From positions 1 through 36,386 of the IMG/VR virus record IMGVR_UViG_3300017962_003379: a DNA stretch of 36,386 nucleotides, one strand, 5' to 3'. The translations under genes were made by a program, and so were the position numbers. Each line of letters starts with the position of its first letter. Position 1 is the first letter of the stretch. The notes beneath the pieces are model-generated. The model was not told the DNA's origin. It ran no database searches and was given only the letters and a program-made list of their open reading frames with translations. Below, in pieces: positions 3,176 through 31,924 of the stretch. The DNA comes from a virus.

Positions 3176-3689
3176 GCAGTTCTTCCCATTTATTAAAAAT
3201 ATCAATTTGAAATTGCAGTCTACGTTCGTTACTTGGACGTACACCATGCCACTGCAATACATTTACAAATATAGGTACATTCCTATATTCATAAGTCCAC
3301 ATGTCGTCACCTTGTTTATTACTATAAAAATCCACAGCACTTGGATATGTGATAGGCACAGTGAAACACACTGGTCTAAACCCGTCTTGATGTATAAACA
3401 AGCCATTTACTAACTGACTTCTTGCTAGTTGAAATCCTTGCTGTCCTGTGCCTTTAGTTTCATAAAAATCTAAACGCATTTTAAATTCATGCATTAAGTC
3501 TATTAGATTTTTAATAACAGGCTCTTGTAGTAATCCTAAGTCGTAGCAAACTTCAATGCCAAACGGTTCACCGTTTTTGTCCATATACATGTCAAGATTA
3601 AACTTGTCAAACAAGTACATCCATTCCTCGGGATCATATTCTAATTCTGTAAGTTCAATTATATTATTGTTGAGCGATTCAAAGTGCAT
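3153..3689 (-). CDS. 2-oxoglutarate/Fe(II) oxygenase-like protein
   Basis: The 178-residue protein shows a facial-triad pattern: HQD at residues 100-102 (H100, D102), WHGV with H148, and R157 in the RRLQF strand that would bind 2-oxoglutarate. The spacing fits the double-stranded beta-helix of small phage prolyl-hydroxylase-like oxygenases. Such enzymes hydroxylate a peptide, base or small molecule. It is the last gene of the 22-kb leftward run; its start overlaps the end of the B12-type radical SAM gene by 31 bases. Its final 23 bases overlap the convergent sulfotransferase-like gene. The substrate is unknown. Confidence 0.65.
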   Translation of the reverse strand: MHFESLNNNIIELTELEYDPEEWMYLFDKFNLDMYMDKNGEPFGIEVCYDLGLLQEPVIKNLIDLMHEFKMRLDFYETKGTGQQGFQLARSQLVNGLFIHQDGFRPVCFTVPITYPSAVDFYSNKQGDDMWTYEYRNVPIFVNVLQWHGVRPSNERRLQFQIDIFNKWEELPNLIGNL

Positions 3690-5539
3690 ACCATACCACT
3701 CCTAAATTTATAGTTGTCAGTGACAGCTTCGCTGCCTTCTAACAAGTGCTGACCCATACTACTGTAAGCGCCAAATAATGTCGGTGTAAATTCTATTGTT
3801 ACAGTTTCTGCCGTGTCTGTTAAAAAATTATAATCAAATGTTTGTTTATGTGGATATTTTAAATCAGGATTAAACATTCTAACATCACAGTATTGTACAA
3901 GTTGTTCACTGATTTCTGGATCAATGTCAAACTGTTTAACAAAGTTTCTTATATCGTTGAACATTTTATCTCGTTTATTGATTCCCAATGTTACTCTATG
4001 ACCCATACTTTGCATCGGTATACCAAATATATTATCTGCAATCCTATGTCTTACAACTTGATCAAACTGTTCTGTCACTGTACTACCCGATGACTCAGTT
4101 ACAAATTTATACCAACGATCATAAAACTCTATCTTATTGCAAATATTCTGTCTATCTAGGTAGTTTGCATAGTCACGTAAGAAGTTAAACTCGTGTCCTA
4201 GTCTAGTACACCAAGTCCATTCAAACAAGTATTTGATATCATCGTTTGTAAGCCAATTAGTACTGTATATCTGCTCCATATATTCAGCTGTACTAGCATC
4301 ACCATTGTCACCTCTATATCCAGGCCCGACTCCAGGAAACGGACGTTCAATTGTTTGTATACCGTGTTGCTGCCTACTTTCAGGACTTGCAAGTTCGGCT
4401 CCTGGGAGTATACCAAGTGGAAAAATTTGTGTACTTAATTGATCAAAATCTGCAAGCGTAATGTATGTTTGTTTCCAACTGTCAACTGTTTCTCCAGGAT
4501 TTCCAAGTATAAGTTCACAATCTACCGGCAAATCTAATTCTTTACAACGATTAGCAAGAAATCCATACTTGTTGATATCCATGTTGTCACGTTTTATTAA
4601 AGTAAGAGCATCTTCAGTAAGTGTTTGTAAGCTCATAATAAACGCTTTAATAAAACCAGCATCGTATAATTTTTTAGCCATTTGCAATATATCTTCATTT
4701 GCCATTTTAGCCCAATTCACAAAGTACATTTTTGGATAACCATACTTTTCTTTTGTCTCAATTAATATGTCTACAATAGCGTGATCTCTATCTTTAAATA
4801 GCCCAAAGTTGGCATCAACATTATACAAAAACCCGATCTTATTTTGCCCGGCCCATTCGATATCTGCACGTATACGTTCAATATCATACTTAGTTACTTT
4901 ACTATACGTTAAACTACCCCAGTCACAAAATGTACAAGCGTAAGGGCAGCCTCGATGAGTTTCAAACAAAGCACTATGATTAGATTTAACCTCAGTAAAT
5001 AAATTGCTAGCATAAGGACTAGGTATGATTTTTAAGTCACGTATTCTGTCAGATTTTGGATCATTACTGTAAGTCCAGTGACTGCCAAAATTAACACATA
5101 CGTTTGATAGTTCAGCCATTTGTGCTCTATCATCGCAGCGTAACAATTCGACAAACTTTTTTTCGCCTTCATAGTAAACAACAACATCTACATAAGGATG
5201 CTCTTCCCACCATTTGTCGTCGGGTCGTTGAGGTAACTGCGGGCCGCCATATACAATTAAACATTCAGGATATTGTTGTTTAATGGCTTGTGCTAGCCCG
5301 TCATTATAATTAGCATTCCAAACATAGCAACTCATCCCAAACACACTAGGATTGTTTAATGATTCAACTATCTGATTGTAGTCTTGTTTTTCAAAAAACA
5401 TGCCGCCCAGTTGATAATTTTCAACAATGTCTGGCTGTGTTTGTGCATAACTCCAAAGCGTGGCACTACTGTAAGGTAAAAATTGATTTTCACCAGGATT
5501 AATTACAATACTAAAGTGCGACAGATAAACTGTTTTCAT
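3659..5539 (-). CDS. B12-binding-domain-type radical SAM protein
   Basis: The protein has 626 residues. Residues 1-170 look like a cobalamin-binding Rossmann domain (strands around VFGMSCYVW and CLIVYGGPQ, then VVVYYEGE), the layout of B12-type radical SAM enzymes. The SAM-cluster motif is RGCPYACTFCDWG, with C198, C202 and C205 in CxxxCxxC spacing. Downstream come FLYNVDANFG, a typical second strand, and ELILGNPGET. The classic DxHxxG cobalamin ligand is not visible, so any B12 binding would be base-off or His-off. A C-terminal half of about 300 residues is uncharacterised. The start overlaps the methyltransferase stop as ATGA. Family members often methylate unactivated carbons or rearrange substrates; the reaction here is unknown. 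Confidence 0.85.
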   Translation of the reverse strand: MKTVYLSHFSIVINPGENQFLPYSSATLWSYAQTQPDIVENYQLGGMFFEKQDYNQIVESLNNPSVFGMSCYVWNANYNDGLAQAIKQQYPECLIVYGGPQLPQRPDDKWWEEHPYVDVVVYYEGEKKFVELLRCDDRAQMAELSNVCVNFGSHWTYSNDPKSDRIRDLKIIPSPYASNLFTEVKSNHSALFETHRGCPYACTFCDWGSLTYSKVTKYDIERIRADIEWAGQNKIGFLYNVDANFGLFKDRDHAIVDILIETKEKYGYPKMYFVNWAKMANEDILQMAKKLYDAGFIKAFIMSLQTLTEDALTLIKRDNMDINKYGFLANRCKELDLPVDCELILGNPGETVDSWKQTYITLADFDQLSTQIFPLGILPGAELASPESRQQHGIQTIERPFPGVGPGYRGDNGDASTAEYMEQIYSTNWLTNDDIKYLFEWTWCTRLGHEFNFLRDYANYLDRQNICNKIEFYDRWYKFVTESSGSTVTEQFDQVVRHRIADNIFGIPMQSMGHRVTLGINKRDKMFNDIRNFVKQFDIDPEISEQLVQYCDVRMFNPDLKYPHKQTFDYNFLTDTAETVTIEFTPTLFGAYSSMGQHLLEGSEAVTDNYKFRSGMVCTLNRSTII

Positions 5540-6141
5540 GCTTTACGATATATCCTTAAACTATGATAGTGTTGAACACCTTCATGATTTAAACTTTTAA
5601 AAGGACCGTGTTCTTCTACTAGTTCTAATGCTGTTTGTGTGTCCCACCCACTAATATTTACATAATCATACCCTTCTTGGTTTGGAACAGTCATAACAAG
5701 TACACCATCGTCAGTTAAACTATCTGCTAGATTTTGTGCTGGCGCACTATCTAAATGCCCGCGAGTAAACACACCACTAGCAATAATAACAGGATATTTA
5801 CGTGGAAAAGCAGTTGCTAGAATATCACAGTAATTAACACTGCGATAGTAAAGTTTTGCTTGATCTAAAAACATCATGCTAATGTCATAACCGTCTACAT
5901 TCAAGTAACGTGACTTTTGTAGTATTTCTCCAACAGCGCCTGGTCCACAAGCTAAGTCTGCAATTTCAACATCAGCATCATAATTTAACATTACCCAAGC
6001 GGCTGTTTTACTAGGACCAATCCAATTGTCTGTTAAGATAATATCGTTGGTATAGGTATCCCAATTTTCAAAAATTTCTTTTTGTTTTGTAATGTCATTG
6101 AAACCATCTATATAACTTGTTTTTAATATATCAGTATTCAT
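5536..6141 (-). CDS. class I SAM-dependent methyltransferase
   Basis: The 201-residue protein carries motif I as IADLACGPGAVG at residues 60-71, followed by an acidic strand end (VDGYDISMMFLDQA), the standard SAM-binding Rossmann arrangement. A later hydrophobic strand (GVLVMTVPNQEGYDY) fits the post-core region of a small-molecule methyltransferase. Its overall look is close to UbiE/Methyltransf_11-type proteins. The start overlaps the preceding adenylating enzyme by 11 bases and the stop overlaps the B12-type radical SAM gene as ATGA, so the three are probably co-translated. The substrate is not evident. Confidence 0.8.
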   Translation of the reverse strand: MNTDILKTSYIDGFNDITKQKEIFENWDTYTNDIILTDNWIGPSKTAAWVMLNYDADVEIADLACGPGAVGEILQKSRYLNVDGYDISMMFLDQAKLYYRSVNYCDILATAFPRKYPVIIASGVFTRGHLDSAPAQNLADSLTDDGVLVMTVPNQEGYDYVNISGWDTQTALELVEEHGPFKSLNHEGVQHYHSLRIYRKA

Positions 6142-7558
6142 CTACAATCCACTCCTTGTTCTTTTTTAAATCTTGTTCCATTCTTAGCAGACTGATTTTA
6201 CTAAGATTATATTGATTGCGTACTAGTATATTCATTTTATCTTTAACTCTAGTATACTTAACTGGTACTTGCCATTTTGCTACTTTTGATCTTACATACT
6301 CGTCGAATTCCTTAGGATCAATATCGCCGCTATATACGCAACCGGGTATTTGACCTAATTTCTTGTCCTTAATTGGATAGATATAGCAGTCATTGATTTT
6401 TGGATGACGGGAAATATAATCTGCAATTTCCCAAGGATATAATTTTCCACCACCTCTGTTAATAAAGATTTCTTCTGCTCGTCCTTTATAACGCATATTA
6501 CCGTCGTTGCCAATTTCAATAATGTCATTGGTATCATACCAATCATCGCCGGGTGTGCTTATTCCTTTAACTAGTAATGTGCCACGCTTACTTATCTTTA
6601 TTTTTCCGCCGGTATTGACAAACCAATCACAAGGTTTTCCTATGTGCGTATTATCTTCTCCTCTGAGACAATAATTTGCAATATAGTCACCTATTACACC
6701 ATCACCATACATTTGTATATATCTTTTAGGTTTAAAAAATTTATCCATTTCTTTTAAAAATTGCTTACTGGAAGGGCCGCCGCCAAATTCTACAGTGTTT
6801 AACTTATGAGAACCTTTGTTACTGTTTATTATTTTTTGTAGCGCAAGAGGAAACCCAGTAATCCAAGTTGGGTTTATAACTGTACATGCATGATCATATT
6901 CTAAGGGTTCTTGTATTAGATAACACCAACCACCTACACTTAGTGTATTAAAGACAATTTCTTGTCCCCATGAAATATGTGGGTGCATATGTGCAATTGT
7001 TCGATTTTCTTCGGGATTTAAATAATCTGGATTTCCCTGAGATCTGTACGCATTTTTAGAGTCTTGACCGCATCCCCAATTGTTTTCATCTAACTCATAA
7101 GGTGTACTATAACATTTTGTATATCCATAAGGATCAGTTGTGCCACTACTATAATAGCACATATATTCTTTATCTTGTGTTATTGTTGGTTCAAAGTGTC
7201 TATGTTCTACAGACGCTAAATTGCCCTTTTTATCTAATCTTATAATAACATTAGCATTATTAACTTTTAATCTAGCAGACTCTTCATACACTGTTGCATT
7301 CATTGGTAATGTTGTACCACAACCTTCTATTGACGCAGCAATAAGATATAGGTATGTTTCAACACAGTTTGTACCTTGAACACAAATACGATGTTTAGGA
7401 CCATACCCTAACTCGTTTAACCATTTTTTCTTTTCCAAAGACATGTCAATTAACTGATTGTATGTAATTGTTCTATTTTTATCACTAAGCGCAGGTCTAT
7501 CTACAGCAGGATAATTATAAAAAGGTCTAATAGATTTTTTATTCTGGTTTGTTTTCAT
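6131..7558 (-). CDS. ANL-superfamily adenylating enzyme, downstream copy
   Basis: This 475-residue AMP-forming ligase-like protein has the ATP loop SSGTTDPYGYTK at residues 138-149 (motif A3), a YDTNDIIEIGNDG segment with the Asp that holds the ribose, GRAEEIFINRGGGKLYPWEI (hinge and A8 region) and a C-terminal lid with the candidate A10 lysine in LSKISLL. The usual A5 signature YGxTE is replaced by YGDGVIG. It adenylates a carboxylate and passes it to a thiol or amine in the general family. It is a close paralogue of the next upstream gene, starts inside its end by 20 bases, and shares a 53-base identical DNA stretch with it. Substrate unknown. Confidence 0.88.
   Translation of the reverse strand: MKTNQNKKSIRPFYNYPAVDRPALSDKNRTITYNQLIDMSLEKKKWLNELGYGPKHRICVQGTNCVETYLYLIAASIEGCGTTLPMNATVYEESARLKVNNANVIIRLDKKGNLASVEHRHFEPTITQDKEYMCYYSSGTTDPYGYTKCYSTPYELDENNWGCGQDSKNAYRSQGNPDYLNPEENRTIAHMHPHISWGQEIVFNTLSVGGWCYLIQEPLEYDHACTVINPTWITGFPLALQKIINSNKGSHKLNTVEFGGGPSSKQFLKEMDKFFKPKRYIQMYGDGVIGDYIANYCLRGEDNTHIGKPCDWFVNTGGKIKISKRGTLLVKGISTPGDDWYDTNDIIEIGNDGNMRYKGRAEEIFINRGGGKLYPWEIADYISRHPKINDCYIYPIKDKKLGQIPGCVYSGDIDPKEFDEYVRSKVAKWQVPVKYTRVKDKMNILVRNQYNLSKISLLRMEQDLKKNKEWIVDEY
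7113..7165. repeat. 53-bp copy 1 of repeat within tandem ANL genes
   Basis: These 53 bases are identical to 8533-8585. They encode the adenylate-binding loop (around MCYYSSGTTDPYGYTKC) of the downstream adenylating gene. The surrounding sequence of the two genes differs much more, so the identity points to recent duplication with local gene conversion or strong codon-level constraint. Confidence 0.9.
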
Positions 7559-8951
7559 ATTCGTCTACAATCCACTCCTTGTTTTTTTCTAAATCTTGTT
7601 CCATTTTTAATATACTAATTTTAGGACTACATTGATTGTGCACCAGCATGGTCATTGTGTTTTTAACTCTAGTAAACTTAACCGGTATTTGCCATTTTGC
7701 TAGTTTTGTTTTTACATATTCTTTAAACTCTTCTGGAGCAATATCTCCACTGTATACACAACCTGGTATTTGCCCCATTTGTTCGTCAGCAATAGGATAG
7801 ATATAACAGTCTTTAATTTGAGGGTGCTGTGCTAGATAATCTGCAATTTCATACGGATATAGTTTCCCGCCGCCTCTGTTAATAAAAATTTCTTCAGCAC
7901 GACCAGTAATCCTATAGTTTCCGTTTGAATCAACTTCGGTTAAATCACCTGTGTCCCACCAAGTTTGTTGCGGAGTATTTAATCCTCTGATTTCTAATGT
8001 ACCACGTTCGCCTATACGAATTTCTCCTCCACTTAGTTTGTGCCAAGTAACTTGTTTGCCAATGTGTGTAAGGTCCTCACCTGCTTTGGCAAAATTACAC
8101 AATGTAGTACCAATTGCACCTTCACCGTAAACATTAATATATTGTTTAGGTCCAAAAAACTCTTGTATGTTATCCATTTGAGTTTGACTTACTACAACAC
8201 CACCAAACTCAACTGTATTAAGTTTGTGATTTCCTGTGTTTGTATTCATAATTTTTTGTAGTGCTAGTGGAAATGCGCAAATCCAAGTTGGCTTAATAGT
8301 AGCACAGGCTCGATCATATTCTTCTGGTTCGTAACACAAGTATGTCCATCCACCCATGCTCAGTGTATTAAACACTACATCTTGACCCCATGCAATATAA
8401 GGAACCATTACACTAACCATTCTGTTTGTTTCTGGGTTAGCATAGTCTGGATTACCTTGTATACGGTAAGTGTTACTGAGATCCAAACTACATCCCCAAT
8501 TGTCCTCATCTAATTCATATGGACAACTGTAGCATTTTGTATATCCATAAGGATCAGTTGTGCCACTACTATAATAGCACATATACTCCTTAGGCTGCTC
8601 CATAGTAGGATCAAAGTGTCTATGTTCAATGCTTTGCAGTTCAGCATCTTCGTTAAATCGTACAATTACATTAGCATTGTTTGCTGAAATTCTGGCATGT
8701 TCTTCTTGTTTACTAGAATTCATGGGCAGTGTAGTACCACATGCATCCATAGAAGCTGCTACTAGCCAAACATAAGTTTCGATAGCGTTAGGCCCTTGTA
8801 CACATATTCTATGCCCTGCCCCATAGCCCATGTCATTGAGCTGTTGCTTTACTTGTGTTACTTCGTTGATAAATTCTCTGTATGTAACTGTTCTTCTTTT
8901 ATCGCTCAATGCTGGTCTATCATTGGGCTGCAACATATAAAATGGTCTCAT
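7539..8951 (-). CDS. ANL-superfamily adenylating enzyme, upstream copy
   Basis: A 470-residue paralogue of the neighbouring ligase, with the same domains in order: N-terminal subdomain, A3 loop SSGTTDPYGYTK at residues 128-139, A5 replaced by YGEGAIG, WWDTGDLTEVD (ribose Asp), GRAEEIFINRGGGKLYP and the C-terminal lid with candidate lysine in SPKISILK. The two proteins share most motif residues and the ending KNKEWIVDEY, but differ in the acyl-pocket region (GGVVVSQTQMD here against GGPSSKQFLKEMD), which suggests different or alternative substrates. The gene begins 9 bases after the sulfotransferase gene and overlaps the next copy by 20 bases. An aryl or amino acid substrate is possible but not shown. 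Confidence 0.88.
   Translation of the reverse strand: MRPFYMLQPNDRPALSDKRRTVTYREFINEVTQVKQQLNDMGYGAGHRICVQGPNAIETYVWLVAASMDACGTTLPMNSSKQEEHARISANNANVIVRFNEDAELQSIEHRHFDPTMEQPKEYMCYYSSGTTDPYGYTKCYSCPYELDEDNWGCSLDLSNTYRIQGNPDYANPETNRMVSVMVPYIAWGQDVVFNTLSMGGWTYLCYEPEEYDRACATIKPTWICAFPLALQKIMNTNTGNHKLNTVEFGGVVVSQTQMDNIQEFFGPKQYINVYGEGAIGTTLCNFAKAGEDLTHIGKQVTWHKLSGGEIRIGERGTLEIRGLNTPQQTWWDTGDLTEVDSNGNYRITGRAEEIFINRGGGKLYPYEIADYLAQHPQIKDCYIYPIADEQMGQIPGCVYSGDIAPEEFKEYVKTKLAKWQIPVKFTRVKNTMTMLVHNQCSPKISILKMEQDLEKNKEWIVDEYENKPE
8533..8585. repeat. 53-bp copy 2 of repeat within tandem ANL genes
   Basis: Second copy of the 53-base stretch at 7113-7165, covering the same A3-loop codons in the upstream adenylating gene. 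The copies lie 1420 bases apart, close to one gene length, as expected for a tandem gene duplication. A further identical 20-base match occurs near the two 3' ends (6141-6160 and 7564-7583). Confidence 0.9.
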
Positions 8952-8960
8952 CTTTTTCCC

Positions 8961-10555: not shown

Positions 10556-11237
10556 GCCCAACAACCTCGTCGTAGTAAATGTCTAATAAGTTACAAACAC
10601 GATCAACTTTTTCTTCTCTGTATTCTCCTAAGAACTGTTTAATAAATTCAACTGTCATTTCTGTATTGCGAGTAACCAATGCAGTGCAAAAATCAAACGT
10701 AGTTGCATGTGATTTGTTGTTAAACACTTGCATTCCATTGGCCCATTCTTGTGTAAAAAATGTAGGCCAACATAATTCACATCTGTGCTGTTGATAGTGT
10801 ACTCCAATATCAGTTGTTGGCACAATACTAACAGGTTTAATGTTTTTGTCAAGTGTAGTGTAATCTATATTTTCTGTCCAGCTGTGACATCCATAATAAA
10901 TCCTTTCGCCTGACATGTCATAATGCATATTAGGAAAAAAGTTACTGCGTTCTCTGAGTGCAATACTTAAACAACCAATTTGATCAAACACTGTGTTAAT
11001 ATCATACTTAGGTTTTTTATGCCAAAACCATTCAATGTAACGTTTAGGAAGTGTATGAAAATCTATTTCTTTACTTGCTGGATTTTCGCTGATACTGCCT
11101 TGTGCCATAACAACAGGATTAACATAATCTATTTTTGCATCCATTTCACTGATTAAACGTAACAGTAAACGACCGCTACTGCCAGGAATATAGTCGCACA
11201 GTATTAGTTCATTCTTATCTAGAAACATATAACTCAT
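10548..11237 (-). CDS. sulfotransferase-like P-loop protein
   Basis: The 229-residue protein opens with a hydrophobic strand and YIPGSSGRLLLRLI (about residues 15-28), similar to the nucleotide loop of divergent phage sulfotransferases and to the gene at 2450-3175 (EPGTRGHYTARVL). A later strand, KPVSIVPTTDIG, could be the 3'-phosphate region but lacks a clear Arg-Ser pair. The first ATG at 11237 overlaps the aminotransferase end by 23 bases; an ATG at 11228 is an alternative. PAPS binding is inferred only from the loop, so the protein may be a different P-loop enzyme. Confidence 0.45.
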   Translation of the reverse strand: MSYMFLDKNELILCDYIPGSSGRLLLRLISEMDAKIDYVNPVVMAQGSISENPASKEIDFHTLPKRYIEWFWHKKPKYDINTVFDQIGCLSIALRERSNFFPNMHYDMSGERIYYGCHSWTENIDYTTLDKNIKPVSIVPTTDIGVHYQQHRCELCWPTFFTQEWANGMQVFNNKSHATTFDFCTALVTRNTEMTVEFIKQFLGEYREEKVDRVCNLLDIYYDEVVGHV

Positions 11238-12048
11238 TTATAATCTCTTCTCTAATGTAATCTGTGACACAGACTCTTTTATCTCCGTCATACGCTGTCA
11301 TCCAAAGTTGACACGGTGTTAAGTTATTTTCCTCGCAGTAGCGTAACTGTATTGGCTTGGCAACTCTAGTCACATATCTCGCATCAAACTGTGACAGCAC
11401 AGTTTTTGCTCCTTCCACTGCCATAATATTATAGTAATTATAATTAAAGTTGTTACCATGAACAGGTATAGTTAAACTACTTGCTAGATCATCTCCATAC
11501 ACTATTCCTGCTCTAAGTCCTGCAAGCATGAAATTTTTACTTAAACTAAATGCAACTGCATCATATACACTATCACTTGTGTCTAGACTTTCAAAACTAT
11601 TGCCATAAAAAGCACAATCTAAAAATATATGACAGTTGCGTTGCTTGCACGTTTCGATTAAATCATTTAATTTAGGATGTATGCTGCCTGTGTGATTAGG
11701 TTGACTTGTTATAATATAACTATTGGGTTCGATTGTATCAAGCTGATCCCATGTTATTGTTTCATTTTCATATGGAAGTAGTATATGATAGTAATATTGA
11801 TAGTCGTCTTCAAATCTGTAAAACTTTTTATGATCTCGACTACGATAAGCACACTGTTGTATTAGTGCATCATGTATGCCATTGGTAATACTCCATTCAC
11901 GTTTACTTGTGCATCCATCAAAGTCATCGATCCATGTATTCCATAGCTGATGATATTCTGCACTTTCTGTTGCAGTACCTTTATTTTTTATTTGCATTTT
12001 TTGTAATGCTTGTGACACACTAGGCGGCAAAAAACTATACACTGACAT
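11215..12048 (-). CDS. PLP-dependent aminotransferase, compact fold type I
   Basis: Although only 277 residues, the protein keeps the aspartate-aminotransferase-type residues: N118 in SQPNHTG, D144 in FLDCAFYG (pyridine nitrogen), Schiff-base K171 in FSLSKNF and R179, exactly eight residues after the lysine as in classical enzymes. ITNGIHDAL near residue 54 corresponds to the glycine-rich cofactor loop. The usual C-terminal small domain is much reduced. It would exchange an amino group or act on an amino-acid-like substrate. It overlaps the mini-adenylating gene by 14 bases, hinting that the two act on one intermediate. A related small PLP enzyme lies at 25505-26371. Confidence 0.75.
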   Translation of the reverse strand: MSVYSFLPPSVSQALQKMQIKNKGTATESAEYHQLWNTWIDDFDGCTSKREWSITNGIHDALIQQCAYRSRDHKKFYRFEDDYQYYYHILLPYENETITWDQLDTIEPNSYIITSQPNHTGSIHPKLNDLIETCKQRNCHIFLDCAFYGNSFESLDTSDSVYDAVAFSLSKNFMLAGLRAGIVYGDDLASSLTIPVHGNNFNYNYYNIMAVEGAKTVLSQFDARYVTRVAKPIQLRYCEENNLTPCQLWMTAYDGDKRVCVTDYIREEIINELYVSR

Positions 12049-15508: not shown

Positions 15509-15521
15509 ATTATTCTTTCTT

Positions 15522-16718: not shown

Positions 16719-16720
16719 TG

Positions 16721-23240: not shown

Positions 23241-24288
23241 ATAAACTAAACCTTTCGTCTAAGTCTAACAGTTGTGTTGTACGAATTTCGTCAAGCATAC
23301 TATTATAACTTTTAAATTTTTCATAGTTGTCATTGCTAAACACTGTAGATTGTAACAACTTTTTTAATTTTGGATCTTGAACACGTTGTTGTGCCCATGC
23401 AATATGCTCAGGCAATACTGCACTTAAACTAGTATATTCAACGTCACTGTCATCCCAATTAATTTCAAACTCAGCTGATATTGTTGCAAACCATTTTTCT
23501 AACTCAGGTAAGTTAAAAATATTATATGGAGTACAAACAACATTAAAACTATAAACGTTTGCTAGTTGCTCGTCAAATATTTGTTTTATTCTTGAACTAA
23601 CTTTATTCCAATTAGCATTAGTTCTAATATATTCGTATGTAGAATCAGTAGCATCTAAACTGAATACTATATTTACATATTCAAATCTTTTAAGTATACG
23701 TCTAAACTTTTGATTTAAGTTAGTTGCATTTGTAGTTATTCTTAAACGTTTACAAGAAACACTTTCCAATGCTTGTATTGCAAGTGGATCAATTGTAGGT
23801 TCACCTCCTAGTACTTTTATTTCTTGCAATTCACACGAACTTAAAAACTGCTTAAACTGTTCAAAGTCTTGTGCTACTAGTGTTTTATATTTTCTAAAAC
23901 CTTTGTATTGTTTTGCATATTCAAGTGCTTCTTGATTTATTAAACTGCTACTGTTAGGTACACACATTCTACATTTTAAGTTACAGGTATTACTAGGTCT
24001 ATAATCTAAGTATAACAGTTCAGGCTTGTCAACAGGTGTGCGCTTGTAGCGTTTGTTCCATAATGCTGTATCATTGGGCAATCCCATGTTTGCTTTACGT
24101 TCACAGTATGCACAATCTTCAGGCCAAATACCTGTGTTCAATTGCTCACGTATAGTGTTGAGCCGTTTGCTGTTCCAGTATTCCTCAGGTGACATGTGCA
24201 GCAAATGTTTAACTGCTACACAACAAGGTGCATACTCACCATACCCAGTTGCATACATACCCATCCATGGAGCTCTACACAAAGTCAT
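23233..24288 (-). CDS. N-terminal-twitch radical SAM protein (array gene 2)
   Basis: At 351 residues this is the shortest array member. The N-terminal cysteines are C4 (LCRAPW), C22-C23 (PCCV), C59 and C62 (CAYC); the SAM cluster is CNLKCRMC with C102, C106 and C109. VLGGEPTIDPLAIQAL is the GGE strand and VFSLDATDSTYEYIRTNANW the barrel strand. The YATGYGEYAPCC region is typical of the family's N-terminal fold. It overlaps the preceding gene by 14 bases and the next by 8, so it is coupled on both sides. Confidence 0.88.
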   Translation of the reverse strand: MTLCRAPWMGMYATGYGEYAPCCVAVKHLLHMSPEEYWNSKRLNTIREQLNTGIWPEDCAYCERKANMGLPNDTALWNKRYKRTPVDKPELLYLDYRPSNTCNLKCRMCVPNSSSLINQEALEYAKQYKGFRKYKTLVAQDFEQFKQFLSSCELQEIKVLGGEPTIDPLAIQALESVSCKRLRITTNATNLNQKFRRILKRFEYVNIVFSLDATDSTYEYIRTNANWNKVSSRIKQIFDEQLANVYSFNVVCTPYNIFNLPELEKWFATISAEFEINWDDSDVEYTSLSAVLPEHIAWAQQRVQDPKLKKLLQSTVFSNDNYEKFKSYNSMLDEIRTTQLLDLDERFSLYV

Positions 24289-25465
24289 CTAGTTTCATAT
24301 CCTCAAGTACTTGGCGCCAGCGAGTATTTCTAGCAGTGTCTAAGTCATCTAAGTAATTTATTAGTGTAGTTTTATGATCATCCCACAAGTCTTTTTCTAA
24401 CATATGATTAAGATAAAAAGGCCATTCTTCTTGCGCTGCATGTAAAAAGTCAATGCTTTCCCAGTCTTTTTTAATTTTTTCTTTAACAGGCATTGGTAAA
24501 ACTTGTGCGCTCATGTGCATAGGAAACTCTACATGATTACACAATAAGAATTTAATATTTGGATAAGTTTGTGTAATGTGTTCATACGTTTCTTTGAAAT
24601 AAAACATACTAATGTTACTACATGTCCATTGGATCCCTATATCAAAGTTTGATTTAGTAGCATATTCATTTAGCATTGCTAGTCTATTTTGTATTACACT
24701 CCACTGTGTAGGAAATCTAAAAAACTCTAATTGATCGCCGATAGCGTCTAAACTAATGCGCAATATTGTATTTTTAAATTTACTTAATAATTCCATACGT
24801 TCTGGTGTAAGCAGTATGCCGTTTGTTACATAAGCTAAGTGTACTTCGCGAGCATACCTGCTGTTACTTAAATGTCCAATAAACTCATTATGTCTTTTGT
24901 TAGCCCAACTTTCTCCACCAAGAAAGTTATAGCGTTTGATTTCATGTTTAGCTCTAAGTAAAGGAACCCATATTTTGTAATCAGTGTCAATCCAACGATT
25001 GCTTATTTCATGTTTTTTTGTATTTTCATATTTGTCTAATAGTAATTCATCTTCGTTCCACTTGCTGCTAGCACCAGTGCCACAGTGAATACATTTTAAA
25101 TTACAAGTTGTGCCAGTTCGAATGTCTACATGAGGAGGGTTATAGTCAACGCTTCCGTCTGAATTTGTTTGATCTAATAGATGTTTGTATTCCTCATACC
25201 AATACCCATTTTCATCTTCACGTTTACTTTTTCCGTTGAGCTTTTCAACATATTCGCAACGATTGCAATTGTCAGGCCATTTGCCTGCTAAAAAATCTTT
25301 TCGTATTGTTTTAAAGTATTCGTTGTTCCATTCGTCACTGATAGTACTACCTTTAAGTTTCCTATCTTCACGCTTAATAGTAGCATCGTCACTATAACCG
25401 CATACTCTAGGTCTACCAAATGTTGTTGTGCTAAAATTAATCCAAGGTAATATACAAGGCTTCAT
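24275..25465 (-). CDS. N-terminal-twitch radical SAM protein (array gene 1)
   Basis: This 396-residue protein is the first gene of the leftward run. N-terminal cysteines are C4 (PCILPW), a single C22 (VCGYS), C67 and C70 (CNRC); the SAM cluster is CNLKCIHC with C121, C125 and C128. The GGE strand is FLGGESWANKRH. Cys at the second CC position is absent (CG), so the auxiliary cluster may have an open coordination site or another ligand. A weak late-promoter-like ACTAAATA lies 6 bases before the ATG. Being first, its expression probably controls the coupled genes downstream. Confidence 0.88.
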   Translation of the reverse strand: MKPCILPWINFSTTTFGRPRVCGYSDDATIKREDRKLKGSTISDEWNNEYFKTIRKDFLAGKWPDNCNRCEYVEKLNGKSKREDENGYWYEEYKHLLDQTNSDGSVDYNPPHVDIRTGTTCNLKCIHCGTGASSKWNEDELLLDKYENTKKHEISNRWIDTDYKIWVPLLRAKHEIKRYNFLGGESWANKRHNEFIGHLSNSRYAREVHLAYVTNGILLTPERMELLSKFKNTILRISLDAIGDQLEFFRFPTQWSVIQNRLAMLNEYATKSNFDIGIQWTCSNISMFYFKETYEHITQTYPNIKFLLCNHVEFPMHMSAQVLPMPVKEKIKKDWESIDFLHAAQEEWPFYLNHMLEKDLWDDHKTTLINYLDDLDTARNTRWRQVLEDMKLDDFV

Positions 25466-25470
25466 ATGTG

Positions 25471-25478: not shown

Positions 25479-25491
25479 CATTAACTACGTA

Positions 25492-25499
25492 CATAAATA
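25492..25499 (+). promoter_or_regulatory. late promoter CATAAATA before the small PLP gene
   Basis: CATAAATA matches the marine T4-like late consensus exactly. It ends 5 bases before the ATG at 25505, so transcription starting at the usual distance would fall at or within the start codon. Either the mRNA is leaderless or a later start is used (an in-frame ATG lies at 25568). Confidence 0.45.
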
Positions 25500-25504
25500 A
25501 TTGT

Positions 25505-26371
25505 ATGCGAGATAGTGTTAATAGAGAATATACCAGAGAATGGTTGCAGTTTGAAAGACCACAACCAATGTACGACAGTAGTATTAATAAACTATATGAC
25601 AGATTTTATCAAGAAAATCCTGTACATAATGAAAATTTATTTGAAGATTTTAAAACAGAATTTGTTAACTGGTTAGATCAACATACAATGAGCAAATTGT
25701 CTGGTTATAAAAACTTCACACAACAAGATATATGTGTTGGATGTACACAGTTTATCGACGATTTATACATGCGCTGTAGTACCAATGGAATACAAATATT
25801 AGAAAATGATTACAAGTATCACTGGAGACTTAATCCTGACATTGAATATGTTACTATAGATACACTTGATCCTGCTAGAGAATTAATTATAGCAATGCCA
25901 TTTCCATATTATGGAGATGTGCATCCGAAAATGAATCAAATACTTGATCGCTGTGAAGAACTTGACATACCTGTACACATAGACGCTGCTTGGTTAAGTT
26001 GTAGTAGAGATATCGAATTTGATTTTGATCACCCGGCAGTGAAAACATTTTGTATTAGTTTAAGTAAAGGCGGACTTGGCGGCAATCGTATAGCATTGAG
26101 ATTTGCTCGTAATCGTCCAGACGGTGCTATTACTATTATGAATGATTTTAATATGAACTGTCAAAGTTTAGTGTGGATGGGTATAAAATTTATGCAAGAA
26201 CTAGGTCCAGAATATTACTGGAGAGAATACGGAGCAGAATACGACCAAGTATGTAAGGATTTCAATTTACAACCTAGTAAAGCTATACACCTAGCTACCA
26301 ACAACGGTGAGCCTGTAGGTGTAAGACCTGTGTTGAGAGCATTAAAGTCACTGAATATCCTCAGCCACTAA
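25505..26371 (+). CDS. small PLP-dependent enzyme, divergent aminotransferase fold
   Basis: The 288-residue protein has a compact fold-type-I core: ICVGCTQFIDD (about 76-86, cofactor loop position), D160 in VHIDAAW (pyridine nitrogen), Schiff-base K188 in ISLSKGG and R195 seven residues later. The sequence IAMPFPYYGDVHPKMNQILD aligns in position with SQPNHTGSIHPKLNDLIE of the aminotransferase at 11215-12048, indicating distant paralogues. It is transcribed away from the 22-kb run and its last 24 bases overlap the convergent radical SAM gene. A reduced small domain may change the reaction; the substrate is unknown. Confidence 0.65.
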   Translation: MRDSVNREYTREWLQFERPQPMYDSSINKLYDRFYQENPVHNENLFEDFKTEFVNWLDQHTMSKLSGYKNFTQQDICVGCTQFIDDLYMRCSTNGIQILENDYKYHWRLNPDIEYVTIDTLDPARELIIAMPFPYYGDVHPKMNQILDRCEELDIPVHIDAAWLSCSRDIEFDFDHPAVKTFCISLSKGGLGGNRIALRFARNRPDGAITIMNDFNMNCQSLVWMGIKFMQELGPEYYWREYGAEYDQVCKDFNLQPSKAIHLATNNGEPVGVRPVLRALKSLNILSH

Positions 26372-27463
26372 ACCAAGTAAAGGTCTTTTCTTTAGCTCAC
26401 TTACACTACATGTTTGTGTACATCTCATAATTCTATCCTTGGGACCTGTGCCATGACACTTTGACTTCCAACTATCAACTAAATCATTTTTATAAAATTC
26501 TGATTCTATTATTTCGTCAAGCGTATAATAATTTAAATTATTCCAATTTTCGCCGTAAATTTCAAAACGTTGATCTTGTATTTCATGCACTTCTTTATGT
26601 AATCCGTTGTAATTTCTATTGCCAATAAAACAACAAGGCCACACACAGCCTTTGTAATCAACAAAATACATGTGTTGTTGTTTACAATGAATATACTCAT
26701 CCATCTTGTCAGCCTGATGACTGTTTAATTCTTCCCAGCCAATTTGGTGCTTTCGTCTAATAGCCTTATTGAGATCAACATGTGCTAATGCCCTGTCGGG
26801 TCGAGACATAAATCGTGCGAACCCCATGTCTTTAGCTAGTTGTTTGGCTTGATCAGTCTGATGTTCATTCCAAGGAAAAATTAACCATTGCCACAATGCG
26901 TCCTCAGCATAATCTAAATTAGATAAACGCTTTGATTCGTCGAGAAATGCTTGTGCATTTTTAATTATTTTGTTCCAATTACTTCCGCGCCTATACAAAT
27001 GATTTGTATCTTCTAACCCGTCTATACTAAAATGAATTCTATGAGGAATGTCGTTTTTTGCGAACAAGTTAGCTAACTTTGTAAAGTAGTCTGGCGATCT
27101 AAGACTTGCATTGGTATGTATTAAGATCAGATGATTGGTGTTTGTTACAATATAGTCTACCATATCTAAAAATTCAGGATGTGCTAGTGGATCATCTATT
27201 GTTCCAATAAATTCTATTCGCTTAACATTATTTTTAATTATATCACTATCTATTAGTTTTGTAAACACATCAAAACTTAAAAATTCATTCTTAGGAATAG
27301 CGGGATTAGTTTCTAGCTTTAAATTATAAATGTCAACAGACACGTCTGGATCATCGTATTTTTCTATAGAACTAAACAGTGTTCTAACACACCCAGGACA
27401 TCCTAGATTACAATTACTGCTAATTTCTAGTTGCAATGTTGAGGGGTTTCTGTTATAATGCAT
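26348..27463 (-). CDS. SPASM-type radical SAM protein
   Basis: I start at the ATG at 27463 (371 residues): an upstream in-frame ATG at 27478 lies inside the promoter palindrome and could not be used from it. The SAM cluster is CNLGCPGC with C18, C22 and C25. Downstream are RIEFIGTIDDPLAHPEF, HFSIDGLEDTNHLYRRGSNW and a SPASM-like cysteine set (FVDYKGCVWPCCF, then KCHGTG and RCTQTC). The same blocks occur at 30830-31924 (HLYRQNVVW and LLMPCCW), so they are paralogues. It is transcribed leftwards from a bidirectional late-type promoter and overlaps the PLP gene at its end. Substrate unknown; SPASM proteins act on peptides or glycans. Confidence 0.9.
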   Translation of the reverse strand: MHYNRNPSTLQLEISSNCNLGCPGCVRTLFSSIEKYDDPDVSVDIYNLKLETNPAIPKNEFLSFDVFTKLIDSDIIKNNVKRIEFIGTIDDPLAHPEFLDMVDYIVTNTNHLILIHTNASLRSPDYFTKLANLFAKNDIPHRIHFSIDGLEDTNHLYRRGSNWNKIIKNAQAFLDESKRLSNLDYAEDALWQWLIFPWNEHQTDQAKQLAKDMGFARFMSRPDRALAHVDLNKAIRRKHQIGWEELNSHQADKMDEYIHCKQQHMYFVDYKGCVWPCCFIGNRNYNGLHKEVHEIQDQRFEIYGENWNNLNYYTLDEIIESEFYKNDLVDSWKSKCHGTGPKDRIMRCTQTCSVSELKKRPLLGLVAEDIQ

Positions 27464-27475
27464 ATTAAGTACCAA

Positions 27476-27483
27476 CATAAATA
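27476..27483 (+). promoter_or_regulatory. late promoter CATAAATA for the amidinotransferase operon
   Basis: CATAAATA exactly matches the marine T4-like late consensus and lies 17 bases before the ATG at 27501, leaving a short leader that includes GAGA at 27491-27494. It overlaps the complementary box on the other strand at 27482-27489. Confidence 0.6.
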
Positions 27484-27489
27484 TTTATC
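27482..27489 (-). promoter_or_regulatory. late promoter GATAAATA reading leftwards
   Basis: On the minus strand GATAAATA matches the late consensus exactly. It lies 18 bases upstream of the ATG at 27463 and shares bases with the opposite promoter inside the 12-base perfect palindrome ATAAATATTTAT (27477-27488). The two boxes could be used alternately or together for divergent late transcription. Confidence 0.55.
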
Positions 27490-27500
27490 AGAGAACAATT

Positions 27501-27830
27501 ATGGACGTTTATACAATCTACGCTGATCATACCGAAACAACAACAGCACCACAGTTTGTTGCCCTGATGCGAAAATTCTTAGACAAAATGGTAGAATTAG
27601 AACGCATAGAGTCTTATCGTATTACACGTATGAAACTAGGGTTTCGATCAATGGACTTACCTGAGTTTCGTATTGATATGGAATTTAAAAATTTGCAGCA
27701 ATTAGATGATGCAATGACTAGTGTGCTTCGTAACGAAGAAAATATCGAAGGAGAACACATTGGTTTTAACCATTTAGTAGATGTAGAAACAATCCAACAT
27801 TTTTTATATAGAGATTATCCAGATGAATAA
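27501..27830 (+). CDS. small conserved protein, DUF6614-like
   Basis: The 109-residue protein has the length and pattern of a small family seen in alphaproteobacteria (I believe DUF6614): an N-terminal strand MDVYTIYADH, a helix, LGFRSMDLPEFRIDMEF, and a C-terminal FLYRDYPDE. The alternation suggests a ferredoxin-like or dimeric alpha/beta-barrel fold, often used to bind a small ligand. It is the first gene of a three-gene operon behind a late-type promoter and overlaps the amidinotransferase start by 8 bases. Function unknown. Confidence 0.6.
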   Translation: MDVYTIYADHTETTTAPQFVALMRKFLDKMVELERIESYRITRMKLGFRSMDLPEFRIDMEFKNLQQLDDAMTSVLRNEENIEGEHIGFNHLVDVETIQHFLYRDYPDE

Positions 27831-29028
27831 AGTTAATAGTTGGGATGAATTCCAACCACTAGAAGAATTAATGGTAGGCAGTGTATACGACAGTTCGTTT
27901 TTTGATGCTGTTAAACAGACTCGGGCGAGAGATGCACTTAAACGTATCATTGACGAAACACAAGAAGACTTAGATAACTTTCACTCAACTATGCGAAGTC
28001 ATGGTATTCGTACATACAGTGCAAGTCCAAAGGAAATGGGCTACCACGACAGCATTATGGACTATGTTAACAGTGATGGACAACTAGGTTATAAGAAAAA
28101 TGCTGGTAGTGAAAATGACATCGAAGATGTTGCACTACACTATACAGGTGTAAGAGGAAACTTGATTCCTAATCCGCCGCTGCAACCCAGAGATGATAGC
28201 ATTGTAATGGGCAATAAACTGTTAGTTACCGATCCTCATACTTTTGCAACTCAAAAATTAATTCCGTTTTATAAAGAATGGTTTGGCGAAGAAAACATGG
28301 ATATGAGTATTGTTGAAAAACAATATAGTTTTAATCGCAGTGACAGAAACTTAGAAAACTTACTAACAAGAAATAATAAAGATATTACCGCAGAGTCTAT
28401 GGAACGTGCTAGAGCTGAAGATAAGTTACACAGTTTTTGTAGTCCAAATCTAACACGTATTGGAAAAACTTGTTTAGTTGACACTTGGCAAGTACCAGAC
28501 GTAGTTGAAACATTTTTAGAACGTGAACACCCTGATTTTAATTATAAAAAGATTTTTATCGGTGGACACAACGACAGTGTGTTTAGTGTTATTAAACCAG
28601 GTCTTGTTGTTGCTAGTCGCGAATTAGAACCTTACCGAGATATATTTGCTGGTTGGGAAATTATTTGGTTTGATGATCCGCGATGGGATCAAGTACGTAA
28701 ATGGCGAGTACTTAAATTTAAAAACGAAGGCAAATGGTGGGTACCAGGCGAAGAAGATAACGACGACTTTACTGAGTTTGTTGAAAGTTTCTTGCCTAAC
28801 TGGACAGGATATGTTGAAGAAACTATATTTGATGTTAACTGTTTAGTATTAGATGATCGTCATGTAGTTGTTAATACAGAAAATCCATACTTAATTGAAA
28901 ACTTGCGCAAGTATCAGATGGAGCCAGTAATATGTCCACTGCGTCACAGATTTTTCTGGGATGGCGGCTGGCACTGTTTAACACTAGATATTAAAAGAAA
29001 AGGAGGACAAAATGACTATGGAGTCTGA
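27823..29028 (+). CDS. glycine/inosamine-type amidinotransferase
   Basis: The 401-residue protein belongs to the GATM-like amidinotransferase family, which moves the amidino group of arginine to an amine. The catalytic set is visible: NPPLQPRDDSIVMG at 117-130 (MxPRD-type region), GGHNDSVFSVIKPGLVV with H249 and D251, and DGGWHCLTLDI with nucleophile C385 (compare GGxxHCxT in GATM). The length is normal. The acceptor could be glycine, a polyamine or an aminocyclitol-type amine; nothing fixes it. It lies between the DUF6614-like gene and the CPYA protein, with 8- and 17-base overlaps. Such genes occur sporadically in marine T4-like phages. Confidence 0.9.
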   Translation: MNKVNSWDEFQPLEELMVGSVYDSSFFDAVKQTRARDALKRIIDETQEDLDNFHSTMRSHGIRTYSASPKEMGYHDSIMDYVNSDGQLGYKKNAGSENDIEDVALHYTGVRGNLIPNPPLQPRDDSIVMGNKLLVTDPHTFATQKLIPFYKEWFGEENMDMSIVEKQYSFNRSDRNLENLLTRNNKDITAESMERARAEDKLHSFCSPNLTRIGKTCLVDTWQVPDVVETFLEREHPDFNYKKIFIGGHNDSVFSVIKPGLVVASRELEPYRDIFAGWEIIWFDDPRWDQVRKWRVLKFKNEGKWWVPGEEDNDDFTEFVESFLPNWTGYVEETIFDVNCLVLDDRHVVVNTENPYLIENLRKYQMEPVICPLRHRFFWDGGWHCLTLDIKRKGGQNDYGV

Positions 29029-29524: not shown

Positions 29525-29938
29525 TGTTTCAAACCCATCAAAGTCTTTTTTATACTCATCTGCGCCATGCAGATACATATAATGATAACCTTGTTGCTTG
29601 TAATAAGCACACTCATGTTCTAAACTACGTATACCTAATCTAAGTTCTGGATTAACATAATCCCAAGCAAACTGTTCTGCCATTACACTTTGCTGACTAG
29701 GATAAAGAACAATTAAACTCCAAGCTACTAGTTTGTTGTTATGATAATATCCTACTACTTCGTTATTTTTAAAGTCTTCATAAAACATAGGCATAACGCT
29801 TGCAAATTTTTTATATTTGCAATAAGCCATATATATCGAGTTTAACTCGCCATATGACCAATTTGTTAATATCTTAAATTGTGTATTAGGTAATAACTCG
29901 TAATTAGTTTTATCTAAATTTATTCTGCAATAGTCCAT
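29510..29938 (-). CDS. GNAT/arginyltransferase-like protein
   Basis: The 142-residue protein ends with a pattern like the C-terminal half of ATE/GNAT transferases: VVGYYHNNKLVAWSLIVLYP strands, then FAWDYVNPELRLGIRSLEHE and a GYHYMYLHGA strand (compare FxxDxxxPELRLG...YxYLG). It would move an acyl or aminoacyl group to an amine, with CoA or aminoacyl-tRNA as possible donor. It is the last gene of the right-hand leftward run, overlapping the radical SAM gene by 19 bases and the convergent CPYA gene by 15 bases. The donor is not established. Confidence 0.6.
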   Translation of the reverse strand: MDYCRINLDKTNYELLPNTQFKILTNWSYGELNSIYMAYCKYKKFASVMPMFYEDFKNNEVVGYYHNNKLVAWSLIVLYPSQQSVMAEQFAWDYVNPELRLGIRSLEHECAYYKQQGYHYMYLHGADEYKKDFDGFETLGSV

Positions 29939-30837
29939 TGTTTTGTATTTAACACCAAATCAATTGCACAATCACAAAATTTAGATTTACAAGTCAAACT
30001 CACAGCAGGTTCGATTTCTCCCAGTGTGTATACGTTGCCCATTGCTGTACGCATTTCACATGCACTACCGTACACAGTCCCATCTGCTGTGATATAACGA
30101 TAGGTGTTATTGCCCAAGTTACATTGCCATCCTGTAAAACTGTGTTGATCTGTAGCTATCAGTGTTTGTGGATCTTTTTGTATTCCGTCGATGTATAGGT
30201 ACATTTCAGGATTCACCATATTTACACTACAATTGTAATAATTCCACAGTAATATCTCTCTGTCCTCGTCAGTATAATCCACACTGAGTATTTGTTTGCT
30301 GTGGTCAGGTGTATTGATACGTTTCATTCTACAGCTAATTTCTAAATCACCTTGTGTTAGTCGATCCCAAGCACGTAAACATATGTCTTTGAATTTAGGG
30401 TGATAAAGTATTAGCACACTTATTCTATAGCGTTGATGTGTTTGTTTGAGCATAGCAACATAATGATCTAAGTCAGCATTTTCAGGATGAAAACTGAACA
30501 ACAAATGATTTATCGGTGCAGTAAATTTGCTCCACCAACGAGCTGTACGACTGCCGTTACTACTAAATGTAATATCAGTATAGTCTCCTACACTGTGACA
30601 AAATCGTTGCAAGTCGGGCCACAGTGTTGGTTCACCTCCCATGATATCAAGTATCACACGTTTACCTTCACTGAAGTTTTTTATGTATTCGATTAGACGA
30701 TTCGTTTTGTCACTGTCGGGCCAACGATATTTTCCGTCATGACATGCGGGCCAGCAATAACTACAACTGTAGTTGCACACTGTGGTACATTCCCAAGTAA
30801 TATATTTGTTGGTGTAGTTTGTAGTTGTCTCACTCAA
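29920..30837 (-). CDS. radical SAM protein, paralogue of 13783-14898
   Basis: The most likely start is a TTG at 30837, preceded by GGAG with 6 bases spacing (frame open to a TTG at 30858), giving about 305 residues. The SAM cluster is CNYSCSYC with C21, C25 and C28, and MGGEPTLWPDLQRF is the GGE strand. The C-terminus has GWQCNLG, SACEM, LTCKSKFCDC, a layout similar to its paralogue and consistent with an auxiliary cluster. The paralogue at 13783-14898 has the same CNYxCSYCWP block. It overlaps the upstream radical SAM gene by 8 bases. Substrate unknown. Confidence 0.85.
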   Translation of the reverse strand: MSETTTNYTNKYITWECTTVCNYSCSYCWPACHDGKYRWPDSDKTNRLIEYIKNFSEGKRVILDIMGGEPTLWPDLQRFCHSVGDYTDITFSSNGSRTARWWSKFTAPINHLLFSFHPENADLDHYVAMLKQTHQRYRISVLILYHPKFKDICLRAWDRLTQGDLEISCRMKRINTPDHSKQILSVDYTDEDREILLWNYYNCSVNMVNPEMYLYIDGIQKDPQTLIATDQHSFTGWQCNLGNNTYRYITADGTVYGSACEMRTAMGNVYTLGEIEPAVSLTCKSKFCDCAIDLVLNTKQWTIAE

Positions 30838-31924
30838 ATTGTGCTCCAAATGGATCAAACTCTGTTCCGCACTTCATAGCACATACTCCAAGTTTACCGT
30901 TTTCGATACTGTCTTTGCTCCAACTGGATTGTATGTCTTGTAACAATCCGTTTCTCATAACATCTTGTAAACTATTATTAATTACATCAATGCCCTGCTT
31001 TCCGCCGGCACGATCAATGAAATCCCATATTTGTTCTACACGTGGATCAGCATGCCACCATTTATACATACGTCCAGCAGTCCAGCAGCAAGGCATTAAC
31101 AACCCTTCTGCTGTAATAAAGATATTTTTTTCCGCAGCGACTTTACATTTAATATTACACTTATTGTAATAGTCGCTCATACTTCCGTATGATTTTTCTA
31201 TTTCTTTTTGCTTTAGCAGTGCTAGATTTTGATTGTCAATTGCTTTGGGTTTTTCAATTAACTGTGTTTGTTCACCTTTGCGATTTTGTGCTTGGTGTGC
31301 ATCTTTGCCTGCGTTATTTGCAGTAAAGAAACGTCCTGATTTTTTCTTCTGAAACTTTTCTACACCCCACTCGATAGCTAGTGCTTCTGCTTCATCAACT
31401 TGATGTTCGTTATGTCCAAATATAATATAATCCCATCGAGCTCTGCCACCAGCATCAATGAACGCTCGCATATTACGTTCTACATTATCCCAAACAACAT
31501 TCTGTCTATAAAGATGATTAGTATCACGCAAGCCGTCAACAGAGAAGATAACAGCCCCATTACGATTAATAACTCTAGCCAAGTCAGCCCACCACGTTTC
31601 ATCTTTTGCTCCTGCGTTTGTATTCATAGAAAGCCACATATCTTTATTGTGCTCTCTAAAGTATTTGAATATTTCTAATGTATCTCGTGCAACAATAGGA
31701 TCACCCAAGTTACCGCACATATACATAGTTTCTAACTGTGCGATAAACTCGGGATCAAATATACGTTTACAGTCTTCTAAACTTAGTTCAGCATTAGTAA
31801 TATGACGGTTATCAGCGCCTCCGTTTTCATTACGGTCACACATAGGGCATGCCGCTTGACAACGTTGTGTAACTTCTAAGTGTACTGTTTTTATATCTTG
31901 GTAATTATACATGCCAATGAACAT
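30830..31924 (-). CDS. SPASM-type radical SAM protein, paralogue of 26348-27463
   Basis: The 364-residue protein has SAM cysteines C22, C26 and C29 (CQAACPMC), YMCGNLGDPIVARDTLEIF, and FSVDGLRDTNHLYRQNVVW, a barrel block nearly shared with its paralogue. A C-terminal set (CNIKC, LLMPCCW, VCAMKCG) points to two auxiliary clusters of SPASM type. GRFFTANNAGKDAHQAQNRKG is a basic insertion before it. The ATG at 31924 overlaps the nitroreductase end; an ATG at 31912 is equally possible. It precedes another radical SAM gene by an 8-base overlap, so the two are co-translated. Substrate unknown. Confidence 0.88.
   Translation of the reverse strand: MFIGMYNYQDIKTVHLEVTQRCQAACPMCDRNENGGADNRHITNAELSLEDCKRIFDPEFIAQLETMYMCGNLGDPIVARDTLEIFKYFREHNKDMWLSMNTNAGAKDETWWADLARVINRNGAVIFSVDGLRDTNHLYRQNVVWDNVERNMRAFIDAGGRARWDYIIFGHNEHQVDEAEALAIEWGVEKFQKKKSGRFFTANNAGKDAHQAQNRKGEQTQLIEKPKAIDNQNLALLKQKEIEKSYGSMSDYYNKCNIKCKVAAEKNIFITAEGLLMPCCWTAGRMYKWWHADPRVEQIWDFIDRAGGKQGIDVINNSLQDVMRNGLLQDIQSSWSKDSIENGKLGVCAMKCGTEFDPFGAQFE

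Follow-up and report, generated by a model that had tools for sequence, protein, structure and literature searches.

An anchored array of radical SAM genes in a hypervariable island of a probable jumbo phage

Phages usually encode only one or two radical S-adenosylmethionine (SAM) enzymes (rSAMs), and a viral fragment that appears to carry eleven of them raises the question of what such an array is for. The fragment, from an uncultured virus, is the IMG/VR record IMGVR_UViG_3300017962_003379, analysed here over its 36,386 bases (hereafter, the window), which holds 47 predicted genes at a coding density of 99.5%, the largest gap measuring 39 bp. A first-pass annotation had recognised eleven rSAM genes among ligases, transferases and oxygenases, and had proposed a whole biosynthetic pathway borne by a virus. 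A dense rSAM island with such partners is indeed present on a phage backbone, but it consists of fixed anchors and exchangeable modules and not of one fixed pathway. We consider the chances about even that this is a hypervariable island of the host-recognition type, whose fixed glycosyltransferase, methyltransferase and rSAM core, together with exchangeable rSAMs, assembles and decorates a surface glycoconjugate.

The profile searches suggested by the first-pass annotation were run, and the rSAM and twitch assignments hold up. All eleven candidate open reading frames (ORFs) exceed the gathering cut-off of the Pfam Radical_SAM family (PF04055), a six-frame search revealed no internal stops, and each product harbours exactly one CX3CX2C motif, as members of the superfamily do. 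Their predicted coordinates were right within alternative start codons, three ORFs having slightly longer possible starts. Six proteins described as N-terminal-twitch rSAMs (g26, g27, g29, g30, g31 and g32, 17275-25465) all pass the curated cut-off (170 bits) of the NCBIfam model NF033640 (N_Twi_rSAM), and their alignment revealed a common N-terminal Cys set upstream of the core. Two further labels need qualification. The putative SPASM paralogues g34 and g40 (26348-27478 and 30830-31924) share phrog_21308 and C-terminal Cys clusters, but neither has a Pfam SPASM match at E<=0.01. In g09 (3659-5539), the B12 part remains under the Pfam cut-off (27.6 versus 32.1 bits); its best NCBIfam match is nevertheless a methylcobalamin rSAM subfamily, of KedN5 type, at 241 bits compared with a cut-off of 700. 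With regard to density, the window contains 3.0 rSAM genes per 10 kb, whereas five whole cultured jumbo phages (255-490 kb) have 0, 0, 2, 0 and 4 proteins over the cut-off, so that the number observed here is not due to chance. This density, which had been called unusual, is not a one-off either, since hundreds of viral contigs share the anchored island.

The window is probably a fragment of a jumbo tailed phage, whose relatives reach 383 kb. Its left end (a DUF2201-like fragment, small genes, a phrog_15894 protein and ThyX) resembles in sequence jumbo phages of 280-490 kb, and the order of this DUF2201, small-gene, phrog_15894 and thymidylate synthase block is syntenic with that of GAP32 and Atu_ph07. 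In the closest long relative, G004 (172 kb), the homologs of g01-g05 (57-92% identity) adjoin the same island, where g21 and g27 are 94% and 85% identical. No INPHARED phage matched 12.5 kb of the window at the nucleotide level. Arrays of this rSAM family are characteristic of chromosomes in Bdellovibrionota, and the contig might on that ground be taken for an artefactual chimera of phage and bacterial DNA, a concern already raised by the first-pass annotation. This explanation is exceedingly improbable because a second contig matches the window at 99.8% identity over 7,925 bp, GC content is even along its length, and relatives are colinear, one of them (G506) mostly so from g44 to g19. Furthermore, the island is joined to phage backbone in several viral contigs (L009, G004 and G041).

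A survey of IMG/VR revealed 277 relatives with g27 and at least 593 related stretches with g21, and the 80 best related viral loci were compared. Across these loci, the order of the anchors g44-g43-g42-g40-g27-g25-g21 is constant, with identities of about 45-85%; g27 is 79-87% identical, and g40 is found alongside it in 79 of the 80. The rSAMs between the anchors are mostly 20-50% identical to those of the window, and their number and kind differ from one locus to another. Among 50 viral records, PF04055 matches range from 1 to 21 (for example, 14, 19 and 21 in records of 383, 246 and 64 kb, respectively), one further record has 22 in 72 kb, and the longer relatives of 172 and 383 kb carry 14-15 rSAMs. 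Where synonymous change is measurable, the ratio of nonsynonymous to synonymous rates (dN/dS) is 0.05-0.38, and all tested genes look, from their sequences, to be under purifying selection. Pattern scans of IMG/VR with g12, g09 and g17 found no relatives, which means that the 3.2-13.2 kb part (the B12-type rSAM, two ligases and an aminotransferase) is either private to this phage or too diverged; we regard it as nearly private. The island of G506 encodes two more proteins of about 700 residues with CX3CX2C (9939-12020 and 13151-15253), resembling a large protein of G037.

The anchors that are not rSAMs were approached mainly through structural models (Table 1). The g43 model aligns with NodS (Z 16.5, 162 residues, 2.5 Å), other structures being tied, and the protein is probably methyltransferase-like. 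That of g44 has a GT-A fold and aligns with B4GALNT1 (Z 11.7, 138 residues, 2.7 Å). For the small protein g42, no convincing match was found in the chromosomal loci tested. Among the partner enzymes announced by the first-pass annotation, the ligases g11, g12 and g18, the aminotransferase g17, the sulfotransferase g13, the methyltransferase g22 and the Asp hydroxylase g20 exceed Pfam cut-offs, the others being weaker. The g36 protein belongs to the amidinotransferase family, its alignment with HsvA including the HC motif with the C-terminal catalytic Cys, and it has no NCBIfam match; it has 51 viral relatives, and g35-g38 are colinear in many of them. This module moves as a unit and also occurs in a second, deeper-branching phage lineage, where g27 is about 40% identical (L157-L207). 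A role of g24 as 5'-methylthioadenosine/S-adenosylhomocysteine (MTA/SAH) nucleosidase was lowered to membership of the nucleosidase family, the protein falling below the NCBIfam equivalog cut-off for every model listed; it could still clear 5'-deoxyadenosine or SAH.

Table 1. Position, strand and supporting evidence of genes in the window (pLDDT, predicted local distance difference test; MTAN, MTA/SAH nucleosidase).
Gene	Feature	Position	Strand	Evidence
g09	B12-type rSAM, 626 aa, variable module	3659..5539	-	PF04055 35.9 bits; best NCBIfam match KedN5-type, below cut-off
g21	Anchor rSAM, CNYKCSYCWP motif	13783..14910	-	PF04055 56 bits; alignment; at least 593 viral relatives
g26	N-terminal-twitch rSAM	17275..18525	-	NF033640 340 bits
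g27	Anchor N-terminal-twitch rSAM	18509..19915	-	NF033640 424 bits
g29	N-terminal-twitch rSAM, variable	20659..21948	-	NF033640 300 bits
g30	N-terminal-twitch rSAM, semi-conserved	21915..23240	-	NF033640 372 bits
g31	N-terminal-twitch rSAM, variable	23233..24288	-	NF033640 205 bits
g32	N-terminal-twitch rSAM, variable	24275..25465	-	NF033640 277 bits
g34	rSAM with C-terminal Cys cluster, variable	26348..27478	-	PF04055 34.5 bits; phrog_21308
g39	rSAM, CNYSCSYCWP motif, variable	29920..30858	-	PF04055 40.2 bits
g40	Anchor rSAM with C-terminal Cys cluster	30830..31924	-	PF04055 37.5 bits; phrog_21308; alignment
g42	Anchor, 74-aa protein	32590..32814	-	Alignment, 54-80% identical to relatives over whole length; phage-only
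g43	Anchor, N-terminal helical repeat and class I SAM methyltransferase fold	32801..33892	-	AlphaFold2 pLDDT 88
g44	Anchor, GT-A-type nucleotide-sugar-transferase fold with acidic motif	33889..34653	-	AlphaFold2 pLDDT 84.5; alignment
g25	Anchor, about 185 aa	16721..17278	-	Matches in 38 loci, median identity 63%; short-chain-dehydrogenase-like by eye
g24	PNP_UDP_1-family nucleosidase	16167..16736	-	PF01048 77.6 bits; MTAN structures match
g28	PP-loop ATPase, weakly QueC-like	19899..20687	-	PF06508 22.6 bits; related PP-loop proteins in many loci
g36	Amidinotransferase-family protein, C-terminal HC motif, part of g35-g38 sub-module	27823..29028	+	HsvA, SxtG, StrB/AGAT structures
g11	AMP-forming ligase, variable module	6131..7558	-	PF00501 49 bits
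g12	AMP-forming ligase, similar to g11	7539..8951	-	PF00501 59 bits
g18	Short AMP-ligase	12035..12733	-	PF00501 59.6 bits; relatives recur together with those of g19 and g07 in G041 and G004
g17	Aminotransferase class I/II	11215..12048	-	PF00155 39.5 bits
g33	Aminotransferase-like	25505..26371	+	Weak NCBIfam transaminase match; homologue in Bdellovibrionota array
g01, g03, g04, g05, ThyX	Jumbo-phage backbone flank: g01 (DUF2201-like), g04 (phrog_15894)	13..2442	+	Synteny with GAP32, Atu_ph07 and G004

The surroundings of the island could be followed in three long relatives (G041, G010 and G004), in which it starts at tail-fibre and virion structural genes, continues with glycosyltransferase-like genes and g44 paralogues, and meets the thymidylate synthase/DUF2201 backbone at its other end. 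The tail genes of G041 are backed by PHROG tail matches. All three display the arrangement of a host recognition cluster (HRC), namely, a hypervariable island beside tail fibres with glycosyltransferases, while the window ends before the tail fibres. In G041, GDP-mannose dehydratase, epimerase and cytidylyltransferase genes lie in the interval from g21 to ThyX; in G004, genes for carbamoyltransferase and sugar-type nucleotidyltransferase are present along with TctA. The latter transporter gene (Pfam; L236:1738-4273, corresponding to G004:141738-144273) adjoins a g47-type protein, TctC-like by eye, and the small g46 (35756-36384 in the window), which suggests a phage-borne tripartite tricarboxylate transporter in this lineage. 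With regard to cofactor supply, S-adenosylmethionine synthetase (MetK) is present above the curated cut-off in G004, G037 and G015 but in none of five cultured controls. The three genes are full-length (G004:103975-105063, G037:221388-222446 and G015:146682-147749), the G004 and G037 proteins sharing 82% identity. A-type Fe-S carriers were noticed in G041 (two), G015 and G004.

A chromosomal counterpart exists in Bdellovibrionota, bacteria of predatory type. A g27-type profile, a single pattern of limited sensitivity, was scanned against 84,980 species genomes and gave 26 loci, most of them from this phylum. Of 144 genomes sampled within the phylum to which a Bdellovibrionia metagenome-assembled genome (MAG) belongs, 41 encode N_Twi_rSAM proteins over the cut-off. 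For the phylum of a Neisseriaceae MAG, the count is 3 of 299, including the phage-like contig of the MAG itself. In Bdellovibrionales SP5OBV1, an operon g44-g27-g21-g40 lies amid housekeeping genes on a 200-kb contig, and a 937-kb contig carries the core together with about ten further rSAMs. Eight of the 144 genomes have g21 orthologues, and in seven the distance to g27 is at most 1.4 kb; the chromosomal proteins are 60-66% (g21) and 54-60% (g27) identical to those of the window. With g30 as root, the g27 tree places the main phage clade beside a Bacteriovoracaceae sequence, within Bdellovibrionota, and the second phage lineage deepest. Exchange between these phages and Bdellovibrionota is likely. 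Two loci in other MAGs, L131 (13.5 kb, Neisseriaceae) and L134 (a 47-kb contig, Rickettsiales), were set aside as cellular loci, given the presence of g42 and their position inside the phage clade; they are probably phage contigs that entered the MAGs by bin contamination or infection. The island core points to Bdellovibrionota as host, an assignment that we do not adopt: the MetK encoded by phage G004 resembles part of the G051 phylum (best 59-61%) more than the G053 phylum (mostly 48-55%). Apart from this, individual Bdellovibrionota MAGs (G056, G059, G061 and G052) contain as many as 42 N_Twi_rSAM matches, densely arrayed (e.g., G061:C1:745-775 kb), and pairs of small membrane-type proteins flank a chromosomal rSAM array twice (G053:C15:636580-638029 and 655923-657285).

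The glycosyltransferase and sugar genes, the tail-fibre linkage, the modular variation and the published pelagiphage cluster (PMC7029224) lead us to favour a surface glycoconjugate as the product. From the identities, order, selection and context of the genes and from their chromosomal counterpart, we infer a substrate class, product, location and benefit as follows. The window would be the middle of a hypervariable host-recognition-type island in a jumbo tailed phage, whose fixed set (g44, g43, g40, g27 and g21, with g42 and g25) probably performs a shared step in building a glycan or glycoconjugate. The rSAMs, ligases, aminotransferases, amidinotransferase module, sulfotransferase and hydroxylases exchanged between the anchors would decorate this product differently in each phage. 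It may be located on the virion, given the tail fibres at the island edge, or on the envelope of the infected host, and may alter recognition or block superinfection, the radical chemistry being sustained by the phage S-adenosylmethionine synthetase, Fe-S carriers and nucleosidase. A broader proposal, possible but tentative, is that of a combinatorial radical-chemistry system, in which a fixed rSAM/glycosyltransferase core and exchangeable rSAM modules, traded between jumbo phages and Bdellovibrionota, diversify a surface molecule in the manner of O-antigen loci, the phages bringing SAM synthetase and Fe-S supply.

Several observations weigh against a glycoconjugate. Profile searches of the PDB with three anchor rSAMs returned distant rSAMs only, which do not fix the substrate, and no characterised rSAM of close similarity is known to act on glycans. 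Nucleotidyltransferases of GT-A fold (IspD and MobA) match the g44 model nearly as well, the window has no sugar-nucleotide enzymes of its own and does not reach the tail fibres, and MetK and Fe-S carriers were found in some records only, all possibly incomplete. Finally, most SPASM/twitch rSAMs of known function are, to our knowledge, peptide maturases, and many weak matches to such enzymes were obtained here. This last point favours the main rival, rather doubtful in our opinion, according to which the array acts by cross-linking, epimerisation or methylation on tail-fibre proteins, on a host protein or on g42. The small protein g42 is strongly conserved beside g40 and g43, and tail-fibre genes adjoin the island in relatives; yet the short intergenic gaps leave no room for a separate precursor gene outside the ORFs, and g42, the only conserved small protein, is conserved over its full length without the pattern of a leader and variable core, is missing from the chromosomal loci tested, and would not need glycosyltransferase and sugar genes at its side. 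The idea of a ribosomally synthesised and post-translationally modified peptide is weakened because no precursor gene was found.

The AMP ligases, the aminotransferases, the amidinotransferase related to SxtG and StrB, the B12-type rSAM, the oxygenases and the TctA gene of a relative might instead point to a diffusible product, akin to a siderophore, an antibiotic or a signal, that serves competition or host control as a small molecule. We hold this unlikely, as no export genes or genes resembling polyketide synthases or nonribosomal peptide synthetases were recognised, the ligases, aminotransferases and the like sit in variable modules and not among the conserved anchors, and the tail-fibre linkage would remain unexplained. 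Hypermodification of phage DNA or tRNA bases, evoked by the QueC-like PP-loop protein g28, a QueE-like reading frame in G004 (by eye, with no Pfam match) and the adjoining thymidylate synthase, appears highly unlikely: the QueC similarity is marginal, thymidylate synthase is part of the jumbo backbone, and the core, devoid of a base-modifying signature, also occurs on a bacterial chromosome amid housekeeping genes.

In the open-access literature, we found nothing published on the anchored array, on its core in Bdellovibrionota or on the accompanying phage MetK, and a 2021 survey of jumbo phages makes no mention of radical SAM (PMC7824862). These three aspects (array, chromosomal core and cofactor supply) appear to be new, whereas a marine phage with multiple rSAMs and an HRC with rSAM cassettes had already been described in 2017 and 2020, respectively. 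The occurrence of the array in hundreds of viral contigs, and of its core in Bdellovibrionota with up to 42 copies of the subfamily, hints at a large unstudied area of radical biochemistry, and the island offers a concrete way to find out whether surface alteration by phages involves radical chemistry. The marker set g21, g27, g40 and g42 can be used to find such phages and their hosts.

Among known systems, the cultured Vibrio phage K566 and Agrobacterium phage Atu_ph07 likewise carry small PF04055 clusters in large genomes (OZ196521 161548-168284 and MF403008 116908-123069, respectively), the latter near a large structural gene and annotated as hypothetical throughout; they differ in that only 2-4 rSAMs exceed the cut-off, identity is low (22% between the g27 proteins in the case of K566) and no anchor set was found. 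The N_Twi_rSAM arrays of Bdellovibrionota, for which we found no published function, share the subfamily, the core g27-g21-g40-g44 and clustered copies, but are cellular, with no tail fibres seen and g42 absent. By its description, the T4-like marine virus TARA_ERS488813_N000010 is similar in that its genome encodes both many rSAMs (12 genes) and an A-type Fe-S carrier; the section of the 2017 paper that reports them notes them as Fe-S-related genes only and does not treat order, anchors, chromosomal counterpart or function (PMC5332604). A parallel in layout is the pelagimyophage HRC described in 2020, which adjoins tail fibres, spans tens of kb, is hypervariable, contains rSAM cassettes and glycosyltransferases of GT8 type, and is proposed to alter host surfaces (PMC7029224). 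The island described here differs from that cluster by its GAP32/Atu_ph07-like jumbo backbone, its 11-22 rSAMs per contig and its fixed anchors, which are also present in Bdellovibrionota chromosomes.

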